A stretch of 64,000 nucleotides of DNA, from contig NZ_LMUY01000045.1 in NCBI RefSeq assembly GCF_009765685.1, positions 1-64,000 of the forward strand, read 5' to 3'. The notes under the pieces were generated by a model, which saw only the letters and a list, made by a program, of their open reading frames with translations, was not told the DNA's origin and ran no database searches. Each line of letters starts with the position of its first letter. Within the stretch, counting starts at the first letter, position 1. Position numbers and translations under genes: made by a program. The DNA is from Acidisphaera sp. L21 (GTDB taxonomy: Bacteria; Pseudomonadota; Alphaproteobacteria; Acetobacterales; Acetobacteraceae). This document shows, one piece after another, positions 19,892-24,314 of the stretch.

Positions 19892-19961
19892 ACCCAGCCA
19901 TGCGCACCGGGCGCTGGTGGAGATCGTTGCGGGCGGGGTAGTTCCTGCTCGTCAACGAGTG

Positions 19962-20141
19962 GCTATGCGGGAGAGTTCGGCCCATCGAGCGGGCCGGCGC
20001 CGACGGAGCAACCCCCCGGGAATCTCTCAGGCACCAAGGACCGCATAGCGAGACGATCTGGAGAGAGGCGCTTCGAGCGTCCACCGAAGGGGAAGCCCGG
20101 CATTTCGATGCCGGGGCGAGCTCTCAGGTACAGCGACAGAT
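19962..20141 (+). promoter_or_regulatory. Tandem glycine riboswitch (two aptamers)
   Basis: Aptamer 1 is closed by a perfect 9 bp P1: gctatgcgg (19962-19970) with ccgcatagc (20041-20049). It contains the conserved GGAGAG-type start and the ctctcaggcaccaaggacc end. Aptamer 2 follows after a 6-base linker, closed by atctg (20056-20060) and cagat (20137-20141), with ggagag and gctctcaggtacagcgacaga. These conserved blocks are diagnostic of the glycine riboswitch (Rfam RF00504). The 66 bases to the ATG at 20208 contain no T-run, so control of translation initiation is more likely than termination. The regulated gene is a DadA-like oxidoreductase. Confidence 0.93.
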
Positions 20142-20207: not shown

Positions 20208-21464
20208 ATGGCCCATATTGCCGTCATCGGCGCCGGAATTACCGGTGTTACTACCGCCTATGCCCTGCTGGACAAGGGCTACGACGTCACCGTGTTCGAC
20301 CGCCATCGCTATGCGGCGATGGAGACGTCGTTCGCCAATGGCGGGCAGCTTTCCGCCAGCAATGCGGAGGTTTGGAACAGCGGCGGGACGATCCTGAAGG
20401 GATTGAAATGGCTGGGCCGGGCGGAGGCGCCGCTGCTGATGAACCCGAAGCCGGGCTGGCACAAATACTCCTGGCTGGCGCAGTTTGCCGCGGCGATCCC
20501 GAATTACCGCCGCAACACGATCGAGACGACGCGGCTGGCCATTCAGGCCCGGCAGCATTTGTTCGACATGGCGGCGCGGGAGGCGATCGACTTCAACCAC
20601 GAAACCCGTGGCATCCTGCACGTGTATCGGGACAGGGCGAGTTTTAACCACGCCAGCCGGGTGAATGGGCTGCTGACACAGGGCGGGCTGGATCGTCGGG
20701 CGGTGACGCCGGCAGAAATCCGGGCGATCGAGCCGACGCTGGCGGGGGACTACTTCGGCGGGTTCTTCACGCCATCCGATTCGACCGGTGACATTCACAA
20801 ATTCACGCGTGGGCTGGCAGAGGCGTGCGCGCGGCGTGGGGCATCGTTCGAATACGACAGCGACGTGCTGGGCATCGATGCGGTGGACTCGGGGGTTTCG
20901 ATCCAGACGGTAAATGGGGTGCACCACTGCAATGGGGTGGTAATCTGCGCGGGCATTGCGAGCCGCCGGTTTGCTGCGATGCTGGGCGATCGGGTGAACA
21001 TCTATCCGGTGAAGGGCTATTCCATCACCGTGGGGTTGCGCGGCGATGCCGACCAGAAGGCTGCGCCGTGGGTAAGCCTGCTGGACGATGCGGCGAAGAT
21101 CGTGACCAGCCGGTTGGGGGCCGATCGGTTTCGCGTGGCGGGGACGGCGGAGTTCAATGGCGAGAACCGCGACATCCGCGCCGACCGGATTGCCCCACTG
21201 GTAGAGTGGACGCGGCGGATGTTTCCGGGTGTCGGCACCGGGGAGGTGACGCCATGGGCCGGGCTGCGGCCGATGATGCCGACCATGCTGCCCCGGGTCG
21301 GCGCCGGGAAGCGGCCGGGCGTGTTCTACAATACCGGGCACGGGCATCTGGGCTGGACGCTGTCCGCCGTAACCGCCGCGATGGTAGCGGAGGCGATGCA
21401 GGCCTCGCCTCGCCCGGCGCGCGCGGTGGCGCCGGCGGGTGGGCGGATGCTGCCGGCCGGGTAA
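20208..21464 (+). CDS. DadA-like FAD-dependent amino acid dehydrogenase (glycine riboswitch-controlled)
   Basis: A 418-residue flavoprotein of the DAO/DadA family, which oxidatively deaminates D-amino acids or glycine and passes electrons to the respiratory chain. The FAD Rossmann motif IAVIGAGITGVTTAYALL is at the N terminus, with SFANGGQLSASNAEVWN typical of DadA. The C terminus contains PWAGLRPMMPTMLP and YNTGHGHLGWTLS, the flavin-contacting end. The tandem glycine riboswitch directly upstream suggests glycine itself is substrate or signal; that specificity is inference. Start is the ATG at 20208. The next gene, 66 bp on, continues the same strand. Confidence 0.9.
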   Translation: MAHIAVIGAGITGVTTAYALLDKGYDVTVFDRHRYAAMETSFANGGQLSASNAEVWNSGGTILKGLKWLGRAEAPLLMNPKPGWHKYSWLAQFAAAIPNYRRNTIETTRLAIQARQHLFDMAAREAIDFNHETRGILHVYRDRASFNHASRVNGLLTQGGLDRRAVTPAEIRAIEPTLAGDYFGGFFTPSDSTGDIHKFTRGLAEACARRGASFEYDSDVLGIDAVDSGVSIQTVNGVHHCNGVVICAGIASRRFAAMLGDRVNIYPVKGYSITVGLRGDADQKAAPWVSLLDDAAKIVTSRLGADRFRVAGTAEFNGENRDIRADRIAPLVEWTRRMFPGVGTGEVTPWAGLRPMMPTMLPRVGAGKRPGVFYNTGHGHLGWTLSAVTAAMVAEAMQASPRPARAVAPAGGRMLPAG

Positions 21465-21530
21465 GCGCGGCTTTACATCGGGGCCGCGGCGCCTAGCCTG
21501 CGCGCGGTCACGGCGATGGATGGGGGCGCG

Positions 21531-22865
21531 ATGACGGATTCGCCGGGGTACGACGCGATCGTCATTGGCGCGGGGGCAGCGGGATTGTTGGCGAGCCTGC
21601 GCGCGGCGTCTTTGGGCGCGGAGGTGCTGCTGCTGGATGACGCCGCGGGGGATAGTTCGAACCTGGCTGCCAGCAGCGGCTTGTTCTCAGCCGCGGGGAC
21701 GCGGACCCAGGCGGCGGCTGGCATTACCGACAGCGCGGCATTGTGGGCTGCCGATATCGCTCGGAAAACCGAGGGCGCGTTCGACCCGGCGATGGTGCGC
21801 ATCGTCACCACCCGCGCGGCGGATGCGGCGCATTTTCTGGCCGATACAATCGGGTTGACGCTGCATGTGGCGACGATCCCGGTGCCGGGGCATAGCGCGG
21901 CCCGGCTGCATGCGACGGCGGGCGAGAGCGGACGGGAAATGGCGGCCCTGCTGATGGCTGCGGCACAGGCGATGCCCGGGCTGACGGTGCTGAAGGGCGT
22001 GGAAGCGACGGGATTGTTGACCGAGCACGGCGCGGTGATGGGCGTGCAGACTGGCAGCACCGGGTATCGTGCGCGCTGGACGCTGCTCGCCTGCGGCGGG
22101 TTTGCGGGCAATGACGCGATGATCGCGCGCTACATGCCGGAGATGGTGGGCGCGCATAATATTGGGCTGGGCCGCAATGACGGCCGGGCGCTGGCCTGGG
22201 GTGAGGCGTTGGGCGGCGCGTTGCTGTTCATGGAGGGCTACCAGGGCCAGGGCCATGTGACGGTGGACGGGCTGGGGCGATTGGGGCCGGGGCTGACGTC
22301 GCTGGGCGCCATCGTGGTGAATGCGCGGGGCGAGCGGTTCGCCGATGAGTCGATGGGGCCGTCCGAATTCGGTGCCTTCGTGCTGGCGCAACCCGGCGGA
22401 TGGGCGGTGGAGGTGTTCGACGAGGCGATGCACCAGAGCGCGATGAGCATGGGGCCGTATCGCGAGACGGTGGCGCGGGGCTGCGTGGTGAAGGCGGTGG
22501 ATGCCGCCGCACTGGCAGCCGCGTTCGGCCTGCCAGAAACGGCGTTGAGCGCGACTTTGGCGGCGTATCATGATGCCGGGCCGCAGGACCCGTTCGGGCG
22601 GGCGCCGCGTAGGCCTGTCCTACCGCCCTATCGCGCGGCGAAGATCACGGGCGGGATGGCGCATACGCAGGGTGGGCTGCGGGTGGATGATGGTGCCCGC
22701 GTGCTGCGAGCGGACGGCACGGTTGTTGCTGGCCTGTTGGCCGCGGGCGGCGCGGCCGCTGGCGTGTCGGGGCGTGGGGCTGCCGGTTACATCCCGGGTA
22801 ACGGGTTGGGACAGGCCTTCGCGCTGGGGCTGGCAGCGGGCGAGACGATCGCCGCGCAGGGTTGA
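21531..22865 (+). CDS. Fumarate-reductase-type FAD-binding oxidoreductase
   Basis: A 444-residue soluble flavoprotein of the fumarate reductase/ketosteroid-dehydrogenase/tricarballylate-dehydrogenase group. It shows the FAD motif AIVIGAGAAGLLASLRAA, the middle GRNDGRALAWGEALGG, and a C-terminal AGLLAAGGAAAGVSG then GYIPGNGLGQAFALG. There is no covalent-flavin or cytochrome domain and no Tat signal, so it should be cytoplasmic. The reaction is not predictable from sequence; enoate or alpha-keto reduction or dehydrogenation are family options. I prefer the ATG at 21531, preceded by GGGGG, over the one at 21516. It follows dadA by 66 bp and precedes the next gene by 13 bp. Confidence 0.8.
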   Translation: MTDSPGYDAIVIGAGAAGLLASLRAASLGAEVLLLDDAAGDSSNLAASSGLFSAAGTRTQAAAGITDSAALWAADIARKTEGAFDPAMVRIVTTRAADAAHFLADTIGLTLHVATIPVPGHSAARLHATAGESGREMAALLMAAAQAMPGLTVLKGVEATGLLTEHGAVMGVQTGSTGYRARWTLLACGGFAGNDAMIARYMPEMVGAHNIGLGRNDGRALAWGEALGGALLFMEGYQGQGHVTVDGLGRLGPGLTSLGAIVVNARGERFADESMGPSEFGAFVLAQPGGWAVEVFDEAMHQSAMSMGPYRETVARGCVVKAVDAAALAAAFGLPETALSATLAAYHDAGPQDPFGRAPRRPVLPPYRAAKITGGMAHTQGGLRVDDGARVLRADGTVVAGLLAAGGAAAGVSGRGAAGYIPGNGLGQAFALGLAAGETIAAQG

Positions 22866-22878
22866 GAAGGGTCGTAGG

Positions 22879-23628
22879 ATGACGGATGCGCTGGGGTCGA
22901 GGATGGTGTTCGGGGTGTTGGTGCCGTCCACCAACACCGCGGTGCAGCCGGAATATGATTCGATGCGGCCGCCCGGCGTTACCAATCACATTTCCCGCAT
23001 CATCATTCCGAACAACCCGGTCAACAGCGACGCCGATTTCAGCCAGCTTATGAACGATATCCGCGGCGCCACGATGGCGGCGGTCGACGCGATCGTGACC
23101 TGCGAGCCGGACGCATTGATCATGGGCATGTCGGCGGAGACGTTCTGGGATGGGGTGGATGGCGCGAACACCCTGCAGGACAAGCTGCAGACGGCGGCGG
23201 GGGGTCGCAAGGTGACGATGGCGTCCGATGCGTGCCAGGCGGCGCTGCGGTGTTACGATGGGGTGAAGCGGGTTGCGGTGATCACGCCCTACATGCCGGT
23301 GGGCGACGCGCAGGTGCATCGCTTCTTTACCGAGTGCGGGTTCGATGTGTCCGTGGTGCACGGATTGCGCTGCAGCAGCCCGACGGCGATCGCCAATGTG
23401 TCGGAGGCGAGCTTGCGTGATGCGATCCTGGCGGTGGATGGGCCGAATGTGGATGCCATCGTGCAGGTCGGCACCAATCTGGCCATGGCGCGGCTGGCTG
23501 CGGTGGCGGAGGAATGGCTAGGCAAGCCCGTGCTGGCGATCAACACCGCGACCTACTGGCACGCCCTGCGCAGCCACGGGATTGGTGATCGCGTTGGCGG
23601 TTATGGTTCCCTGTTGGAGCGGTTCTAG
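22879..23628 (+). CDS. Asp/Glu racemase-superfamily protein (maleate isomerase/arylmalonate decarboxylase-like)
   Basis: A 249-residue protein beginning MVFGVLVPSTNTAVQPEYDS, the typical opening of maleate cis-trans isomerases and arylmalonate decarboxylases. Those enzymes use one or two cysteines placed near the ends of the two beta-alpha halves. Here the first site reads LIMGMSAETFWDG and the second IVQVGTNLAMARLA, neither with Cys. So classic racemase, isomerase or decarboxylase chemistry is doubtful. The ATG at 22879 follows AGAAGGGTCGTAGG. It sits 13 bp after the flavoprotein and 5 bp before an alpha/beta hydrolase, consistent with one operon and a shared pathway. Confidence 0.75.
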   Translation: MTDALGSRMVFGVLVPSTNTAVQPEYDSMRPPGVTNHISRIIIPNNPVNSDADFSQLMNDIRGATMAAVDAIVTCEPDALIMGMSAETFWDGVDGANTLQDKLQTAAGGRKVTMASDACQAALRCYDGVKRVAVITPYMPVGDAQVHRFFTECGFDVSVVHGLRCSSPTAIANVSEASLRDAILAVDGPNVDAIVQVGTNLAMARLAAVAEEWLGKPVLAINTATYWHALRSHGIGDRVGGYGSLLERF

Positions 23629-23633
23629 GCACG

Positions 23634-24314
23634 ATGAATTTCGTTCTGCTTCCCGGCTTCATGCTGGATTACGCGCTGTGGGATGACATGGCGGAGGCGC
23701 TGGGCGGCGTCGGCACGCTGCATTTCGGCGATCTGCGGTTCGGGCATACGATCGCGGAGATGGCGGAACAGGTATTGGCAACGGCCCCTGCCCGCTTCGT
23801 GCTGATAGGATTTTCCATGGGCGGCTACGTGGCGCGGGAGATGGTGCGGATGGCGCCGAATCGGGTGTCCGCGCTGGTCCTGGTGGGCACATCGTCGCGC
23901 GCCGACAAGCCGGAGCGGGCGGAGCGCAAGGCCGAAGCGGTGAAGCGGGTGGGCGACGGGGTGTTCCGCGGCATTAGCCGCGGGGCTGCGGCGGCGGCGC
24001 TGCATCCGGATCGGGCGGGTGACACCGTGATGATCGAGCGGATCCGCGCCATGGGCATTCGCATGGGGGGCGAGGCGTTCGTCCGGCAATTGCAGATCAA
24101 ACGCGCCAGCGATACCGACCGGTTGGGGGAGATCCATTGCCGCACGCTGGTGATCGCCGCGGCGCAGGATGGGTTGCGCAGCCTGGCGGAGCCGGCGGAG
24201 TTACGCGACGGCATCCCGGGCGCGACGATGCAGGTGATCGAAGGGTCCGGTCACATGATGCCGCTGGAAACACCCCAGCAATTGACGCAGATCATCTTGG
24301 ATTGGCTGGGTTAG
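23634..24314 (+). CDS. Alpha/beta hydrolase
   Basis: A 226-residue serine hydrolase. The nucleophile elbow is GFSMGG, the oxyanion region is LLPGFMLDYALWDDM, and the C-terminal EGSGHMMPLETP carries the catalytic His. An Asp (AAAQDGLRS) fits the third triad position. It is a compact form without a large lid. It lies 5 bp after the racemase-like gene, so it should be the last gene of the operon led by the glycine riboswitch. Its TAG stop shares the bases TTAG with the TAA stop of the convergent znuB. Substrate unknown; a C-N or ester hydrolysis step in the pathway is the natural guess. Confidence 0.8.
   Translation: MNFVLLPGFMLDYALWDDMAEALGGVGTLHFGDLRFGHTIAEMAEQVLATAPARFVLIGFSMGGYVAREMVRMAPNRVSALVLVGTSSRADKPERAERKAEAVKRVGDGVFRGISRGAAAAALHPDRAGDTVMIERIRAMGIRMGGEAFVRQLQIKRASDTDRLGEIHCRTLVIAAAQDGLRSLAEPAELRDGIPGATMQVIEGSGHMMPLETPQQLTQIILDWLG

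Follow-up and report, generated by a model that had tools for sequence, protein, structure and literature searches.

The window, that is, the whole 64,000-nucleotide stretch of DNA that was analysed, carries on its forward strand an intact open reading frame (22879..23628, +) with an ATG start and a TAG stop. Its product, P0001 (249 aa), was classified by ORF, Pfam and fold model as a Cys-less protein of the arylmalonate decarboxylase (AMDase)/maleate isomerase family. The upstream neighbour (21516..22865, +), separated by a 13-base gap, encodes an FAD_binding_2 flavoprotein with urocanate reductase and flavocytochrome c fumarate reductase as nearest solved structures. Following a 5-base gap, the downstream neighbour (23634..24314, +) encodes an alpha/beta hydrolase, nearest to the esterases 4uhh/4uhc. 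A D-amino-acid dehydrogenase gene (20208..21464, +; NCBIfam PRK12409) may head a transcription unit, and a glycine riboswitch aptamer (RF00504, 67.6 bits; 19958..20053, +) lies ahead of it. The dehydrogenase, flavoprotein, Cys-less and hydrolase genes are close-set on one strand after this riboswitch and are presumably co-transcribed.

The glycine riboswitch was considered as a functional clue and rejected, as 10 dehydrogenase loci of the same bacterial family, taken from ten of 29 matching genomes (the source genome being one of the 29), had no Cys-less gene in the stretch examined. The riboswitch was found in 8/10 of these relatives' loci, each of the eight with two aptamers, while one was called in the window. 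Because riboswitch and dehydrogenase recur together without the Cys-less gene, the riboswitch belongs with the dehydrogenase. Among 142 loci, the flavoprotein and hydrolase genes were found beside the Cys-less gene nowhere except in the window, and in 10 flavoprotein loci from relatives no Cys-less gene stood alongside; L079 and L083 hold partial relatives (38-39%) of the window flavoprotein. As the gene pairing of the window was seen nowhere else, function was derived from the operons of relatives and not from that of the window.

Residues 15-27 of P0001 (VPSTNTAVQPEYD) represent the family opening. Membership of the AMDase-like family was assigned using Pfam PF17645 (Amdase; 57.5 bits, gathering cut-off 25.9). 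The score with the NCBIfam AMDase model NF052327 was only 54.6 bits against a cut-off of 225, and that with the EutA equivalog TIGR02990 (ectoine utilisation) 70.6 against 318 bits, both below the level required. An AlphaFold2 model was calculated using 113 aligned sequences from the window and its loci as input (mean pLDDT 95.8, pTM 0.93). From a set of 113 references, one with a mismatching translation (a locus-end effect) was removed, leaving 112. The best solved match of the model was maleate isomerase 2xed (Z 32.8, rmsd 1.8 over 235 residues), and other matches were 4fq5 (Z 31.5), AMDase 3ixl (Z 29.5) and 4ix1 (Z 27.7); allantoin racemase 3qvk gave Z 18.4. On the basis of this model, P0001 is confidently predicted to have the two-domain, pseudo-symmetric AMDase-like/Asp-Glu racemase fold.

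In the preliminary description, the two positions where Cys is expected were said to read MGMSAETF (residues 82-89) and VQVGTNLA (residues 195-202), and alignment with solved sequences confirmed this. In motif 1, GMSAETFWDG (residues 83-92; 23125..23154, +), Met84 (codon 23128-23130) occupies the first catalytic Cys position, aligned with AMDase Gly74, Cys76 of the N. farcinica maleate isomerase and Cys82 of P. putida Iso. In motif 2, IVQVGTNLA (residues 194-202; 23458..23484, +), Gly198 (codon 23470-23472) occupies the second, aligned with AMDase Cys188, N. farcinica Cys194 and P. putida Iso Cys200. P0001 hence has Gly198 in place of the Cys188 that marks AMDase, and Met84 and Gly198 in place of the Cys76 and Cys194 that mark maleate isomerase. 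The two Cys of the Asp/Glu, hydantoin and allantoin racemases would likewise be replaced by Met84/Gly198, judged by the Cys positions of the AMDase/maleate isomerase alignment. Among the 109 rows with more than 45% identity, P0001 counted and following removal of duplicate sequences and of hits spanning fewer than 200 query residues, Met84 was present in 107, Ser85 in 108, and Gly198, Thr199 and Asn200 each in 109. Cys was found at both positions in 32/32 weaker relatives from the same loci.

The known mechanisms use these residues. In maleate isomerase, attack by one Cys is combined with the action of a second Cys, and relocation of the AMDase Cys (G74C/C188S) carries a 20,000-fold activity cost (both from the accessible part of PMC12576825); the structure title of 2xed names a succinylcysteine intermediate. 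In OpaE, another family member, both Cys are essential, with 4.8% of the activity left in C90S and at most 0.3% in C199S (PMC12661438, in excerpt). The earlier argument that loss of both Cys would exclude the known two-Cys isomerase or one-Cys decarboxylase chemistry is therefore supported. Judged from the alignment, the known chemistries are excluded for P0001 to the extent that they rely on the two Cys.

Cys status was scored in 196 aligned rows, obtained by reducing 212 to 191 (hits of fewer than 170 profile positions and duplicates dropped) and adding P0001 and four PDB sequences. Neither Cys was present in 136 rows, both in 53 and only the second in 7. Of the 136 double-Cys-less rows, 127 share Gln196, Gly198 and Asn200 and are referred to as the QVGTN group. 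This group was picked by Gln196 plus Gly198 (127/196 rows), so that the counts of these two residues are no evidence; Asn200 was then found in all 127. Residue 84 is Met in 113, Val in 9, Ile in 3 and Thr and Leu in one row each (n = 127), and Cys84 in none. In a tree of 82 of the 196 rows, the 38 QVGTN members formed a single branch with support 100/100, with IgiC-type and Rhodococcus sequences inside. P0001 fits this Cys-less clade, which includes IgiC, by Gln196, Gly198, Asn200, no Cys at 84/198 and its place in the one branch. Double Cys loss outside the group was seen in 9 rows, of the types His/Gly, Gln/Gly and Ala/Ser, and the Cys-status label changes four times in the tree, which was midpoint-rooted and contains several long rows, at least three of these via well-supported branches. 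From row counts and tree branches, the loss is old and fixed in the QVGTN clade and not unique to it, and its occurrence in several superfamily branches goes beyond what the preliminary description had envisaged. The proposal of a subfamily, as opposed to one odd protein, agrees with both the conservation in the 109 near rows and the clade in the tree, and these sequences indicate that the Cys loss of P0001 is not local decay.

A phylum-wide sample of 398 genomes gave 4 with the gene (E <= 1e-40), and 48 of 299 genomes of the same bacterial family carry it, the source genome included in both counts. No relative was found in viral_contigs and phage records at the limits used. Several further observations were made on individual copies. 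Further Cys-less branches occur in the same bacterial family, with His/Gly at the Cys positions (HTxTSY, LSGxGMP) in L224, L235 and L246 and Gln/Gly (QTxAS, PGGN) in L228-L231 and L237. L010 (G035, contig 74; 58% identical) is a marked outlier among the near relatives, reading ATAAESA against GMSAETF in motif 1 and retaining QVGTN. Copies in G297 (contig 102) and G274 (contig 66) have in-frame stop codons, which points to possible decay of the gene in part of the genomes. The record L101 is titled Klebsiella pneumoniae and carries a gene 63% identical to P0001 beside a RutA-like gene; with the other hits mostly alphaproteobacterial, this metagenome-bin label looks doubtful.

The source genome (98.8% complete) has four PF17645 matches, all in Cys-less genes, and the Pfam search found no two-Cys family member in it. 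A P0001 paralogue is 53% identical, and a RutA gene, scoring above the equivalog cut-off, lies 4.7 kb from it. A third family relative (L114 15909-16906, contig 47) is split over two overlapping reading frames; its motifs are GQSAIGF and PGGN, both Cys are absent, and it looks like the Gln/Gly type. The paralogue region L114 also carries an MmgE/PrpD gene and a methylisocitrate-lyase-like gene. Between these two lies a transposase gene (L114 6061-7287; PF07592).

Cysteines of the stretch SDACQAALRCY had been put forward as possible occupants of a catalytic position, which the alignment did not bear out. Cys119 (codon 23233..23235, +) is aligned with AMDase Val108 and isomerase Leu115 and Leu121, a hydrophobic position inside helix 115-124, and Cys125 occurs in only 19/109 near rows. 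Cys119 is present in 97/109 near rows and 103/127 QVGTN rows, its position being Ile, Leu or Thr in 3 of the 4 other clade groups. Cys165 (codon 23371..23373, +), aligned with AMDase Ile153, is present in 100/109 and 105/127, respectively, its position being Gly or Ala in all 4 other clade groups. At 119/165, IgiC-type rows have Ile/Gly and GVMVENF rows Thr/Ala. Cys165 lies three residues ahead of the position shared by AMDase Val156 and P. putida Iso Asn169, the latter presumably an active-site residue. AMDase Val156 is described as a pocket residue in the part of PMC12576825 that was available. Cys75 and Cys153 were weighed as alternatives and, like Cys119 and Cys165, are not constant clade-wide. 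As aligned, neither Cys119 nor Cys165 is at a known catalytic position.

The residues likely to line the pocket were compared between groups. In the QVGTN rows (n = 127), Asn19, Asn200, Asn222 and Arg231 are each present in 127, Arg40 in 126, and Gln23 and Thr199 in 125, and position 138 is Tyr in 120 and Phe in 7. The two-Cys rows have Glu at 23 and Ile, Leu or Val at 196 in 53/53, and Asp at 200 in 33/53. Relative to them, the QVGTN clade shows Gln for Glu23, Gln for Ile/Leu/Val196 and mostly Asn for Asp200. In glutamate racemase, Asp10 and His186 act alongside the two Cys, and their counterparts in P0001 would be Asn19 and Asn200. Given the exchange of Glu23, Asp200 and others for Gln/Asn, and Asn19/Asn200 at the racemase positions, the pocket of the QVGTN clade seems to have turned neutral and to be better suited to amide-like substrates than to proton shuttling.

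Known systems share parts of this arrangement. The maleate cis-trans isomerases of N. farcinica (2xed/2xec) and P. putida S16 (Iso; 4fq5/4fq7) have the fold (Z 31-33), Asn19, Arg40 and Tyr138 in common with P0001, which differs by Met84 and Gly198 for the catalytic Cys, Gln for Glu23, Gln for Ile196 and Asn for Gln200. The AMDase of B. bronchiseptica (3dg9, 3ixl) resembles P0001 in fold (Z 29), PF17645 match, lack of a first-position Cys and a Tyr126 equivalent; unlike P0001, it has Cys188 and none of the clade residues Asn19, Gln23, Arg40, Gln196, Asn200 and Asn222. EutA and EutA-like two-Cys proteins (ACTAGSM/CTDF), which are often encoded in the same locus as the Cys-less gene, are of the same family and have Asn19, Arg40 and mostly Thr199 and Asn222, but they carry two Cys, Glu23 and mostly Asp200 and are 24-33% identical to P0001. 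The solved structure 4ix1 (OPAG_01669, Rhodococcus opacus), matched at Z 27.7 as given above, has Gly/Gly at the Cys positions by alignment, the first read through the L224 alignment and the second directly; it lacks the QVGTN motif, reading MSGAAV, and is not among the tree rows. By this comparison, a Cys-less member of the superfamily already has a solved structure.

Neighbouring genes were analysed in GTDB loci, namely those of the best 80 of 550 relatives, which are themselves interrelated. A PHBH-superfamily FAD monooxygenase, with PnpA and HspB as nearest solved proteins, was the next upstream gene, at less than 400 bases, in 44 of the 73 of these loci with enough flank; none was found within 7 kb of P0001. 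Other recurrent neighbours in the 80 loci were GntR regulators, an SDR, an MBL-fold hydrolase, an aldehyde dehydrogenase, a PuuE-like protein, an isochorismatase-type hydrolase, a methylisocitrate-lyase-like protein and uptake systems. The isochorismatase-type neighbour is nearest to carbamoylsarcosine amidohydrolase and to 3ot4/3uao, which we take to be the maleamate amidohydrolase NicF. By BLAST, 32 of the best 80 of 550 also hold a two-Cys homologue at the locus (28 by gene clusters), and 48/80 had none in the stretch examined; a further two-Cys count, made up mostly of cross-hits on the Cys-less gene, was left aside.

PuuE-like, isochorismatase-type, RutA or D-glutamate-cyclase-like genes within 7 kb, enzyme types associated with the degradation of N-heterocycles or cyclic amides, were counted as cyclic-amide partners. 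At least one was present in 56/80 GTDB loci (best 80 of 550) vs 1/20 control loci, the latter being few, from one bacterial family and centred on two other genes, and in 11/20 family loci, some of them on contigs that also supplied GTDB loci, and 3/8 plasmid loci; 24/80, 9/20 and 5/8, respectively, had none. Since the partner list was drawn up after viewing the loci, with query sequences taken from them, and since contigs are shared and loci related, these counts are suggestive only. In the window, no cyclic-amide partner was found within 7 kb of P0001. In Roseomonas haemaphysalidis, the next gene is RutA, above the equivalog cut-off, and in Salipiger abyssi it is a D-glutamate-cyclase-like gene (L137 9738-10886; PF14336) sharing a 4-base overlap with the Cys-less gene. 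The operons of clade members differ in kind (indigoidine, TRAP transporter, RutA), and more than one substrate is therefore likely.

Relatives preceding a gene for an adenylation-domain NRPS (~1300 codons) were found in Leisingera (47.4% identical) and Bradyrhizobium elkanii (41.6%), with domains checked for Leisingera only. The Leisingera locus (L138) has the order TetR, dehydrogenase, Cys-less gene, NRPS, tautomerase, MFS. From the fit of this order to igiR-B-C-D-F-E in Table 2 of PMC5014874, as far as that source was accessible, we infer that the Cys-less gene is igiC. The same source, in the accessible part, names igiC arylmalonate decarboxylase, and a review names IgiC glutamate racemase (PMC3826127, in excerpt). 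Earlier work, as cited in the available text of PMC12826045, implicated igiC in the production of the pigment indigoidine. IgiC-type proteins have Val or Leu plus Gly at the two Cys positions. The Leisingera IgiC belongs to the Cys-less QVGTN clade and is about 47% identical to P0001, from which it differs by the place of its gene before an indigoidine-type NRPS, by motif 1 (AVSPDGYW) and by having no Cys at 119 or 165. The igiC phenotype was set aside as proof of catalysis, as an insertion in igiC, which precedes the NRPS gene in L138, could be polar on the latter. Both names imply a catalytic Cys that the clade lacks; 'arylmalonate decarboxylase', at odds with the known mechanism, is a probable misannotation of the clade, worth correcting. 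A literature search within one limited collection, part of which gave mostly unrelated papers, found no paper on a Cys-less AMDase subfamily, and no reported activity for any clade member was found in the literature looked at.

The most likely reading, which we put forward tentatively from sequences and model, is that P0001 is an enzyme using a maleate isomerase/AMDase pocket without thiol chemistry on a heterocycle-derived acid or cyclic amide. Our best guess at the activity is a thiol-free lyase or tautomerase for such compounds. As substrate we envisage a planar acid or a cyclic amide (imide, lactam, ureide) derived from an N-heterocycle or an unsaturated acid. It would be polarised by the neutral Asn19, Tyr138, Thr199, Asn200 and Asn222 and the clade-specific Gln23 and Gln196, together with Arg40, and protons would be transferred by water or by the substrate itself. 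With proton transfer left to these, the step would most likely be a decarboxylation or tautomerisation, the product of which needs no stereospecific proton delivered by the enzyme. In the window, the product might pass to, or the substrate come from, the ene-reductase-like flavoprotein and the alpha/beta hydrolase. The catalytic nature of P0001, its substrate class, its reaction and the residues touching the substrate are all conjectured in this way. Points against this reading are that cyclic-amide partners and the FAD monooxygenase are missing near P0001, that part of the relatives' loci have no such partner, that the flavoprotein's relatives in the 10 loci are not beside a Cys-less gene, and that the operons of the clade are so diverse.

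That the likely pocket residues are strictly conserved, and that relatives sit in enzyme-rich operons, speaks for an enzyme rather than a binding role. We regard it as unlikely that P0001 is non-catalytic, that is, a binding or regulatory pseudoenzyme, for example a partner of the two-Cys homologue in the same operon. Every known catalytic thiol is indeed absent, and such a homologue shares the locus in the 32/80 loci found by BLAST (best 80 of 550). Against this, the likely pocket residues are strictly conserved, relatives are embedded in catabolic operons, and the remaining 48/80 loci have no two-Cys member in the stretch examined; the Cys-less members alone found in the source genome weaken a heteromer with a two-Cys homologue. 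Somewhat less probable again is a relocation of the thiol chemistry, with Cys119 or Cys165 as acid, base or nucleophile. Their frequency in near rows and the location of Cys165 just ahead of the AMDase Val156 position speak for it, but neither is constant through the clade and Cys119 sits at a hydrophobic helix position.

Two readings that retain a known reaction appear very unlikely, to a similar degree. One is that AMDase-like malonate decarboxylation is kept at a slower rate, with water as proton donor, so that the database name is roughly right. That name was found in 7/7 annotated plasmid loci opened (an eighth has no annotation), and the PF17645 match is above cut-off; the NCBIfam AMDase score, however, is far below its own, Cys188 is absent, AMDase with a moved Cys is slowed as described above, and Asn19, Gln23 and the other clade residues listed for the comparison with AMDase are missing from it. 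The other is a maleate-type isomerase that allows rotation about the C=C bond by polarisation only and feeds the neighbouring fumarate/urocanate reductase-like flavoprotein. Maleate isomerase is the closest fold and the adjoining gene is nearest to these reductases, but the known isomerase needs Cys attack and a second Cys, and the flavoprotein pairing was seen in the window only.

A broader extension of the preferred thiol-free reading is rather doubtful in our estimation, though somewhat less so than a pseudoenzyme. The QVGTN clade would then be a separate enzyme class, in which neutral side chains (Met/Val, Gly, Asn, Gln) replace the acid-base set and hold uncharged cyclic amides such as pyrimidinediones, pyridinediones, imides and lactams. 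Its members would decarboxylate or tautomerise these compounds or help open their rings, working beside RutA, PuuE-like, maleamate amidase-like, D-glutamate-cyclase-like and indigoidine-type partners, and IgiC would act likewise in indigoidine formation, on its aminoglutarimide/pyridinedione stage.

Should the clade prove catalytic, a classic two-Cys scaffold would have been adapted at least once to chemistry without thiols, and the operon context would supply a short list of candidate substrates. AMDase is a biocatalyst under active engineering, for which variants that are Cys-free by nature might offer useful starting points.
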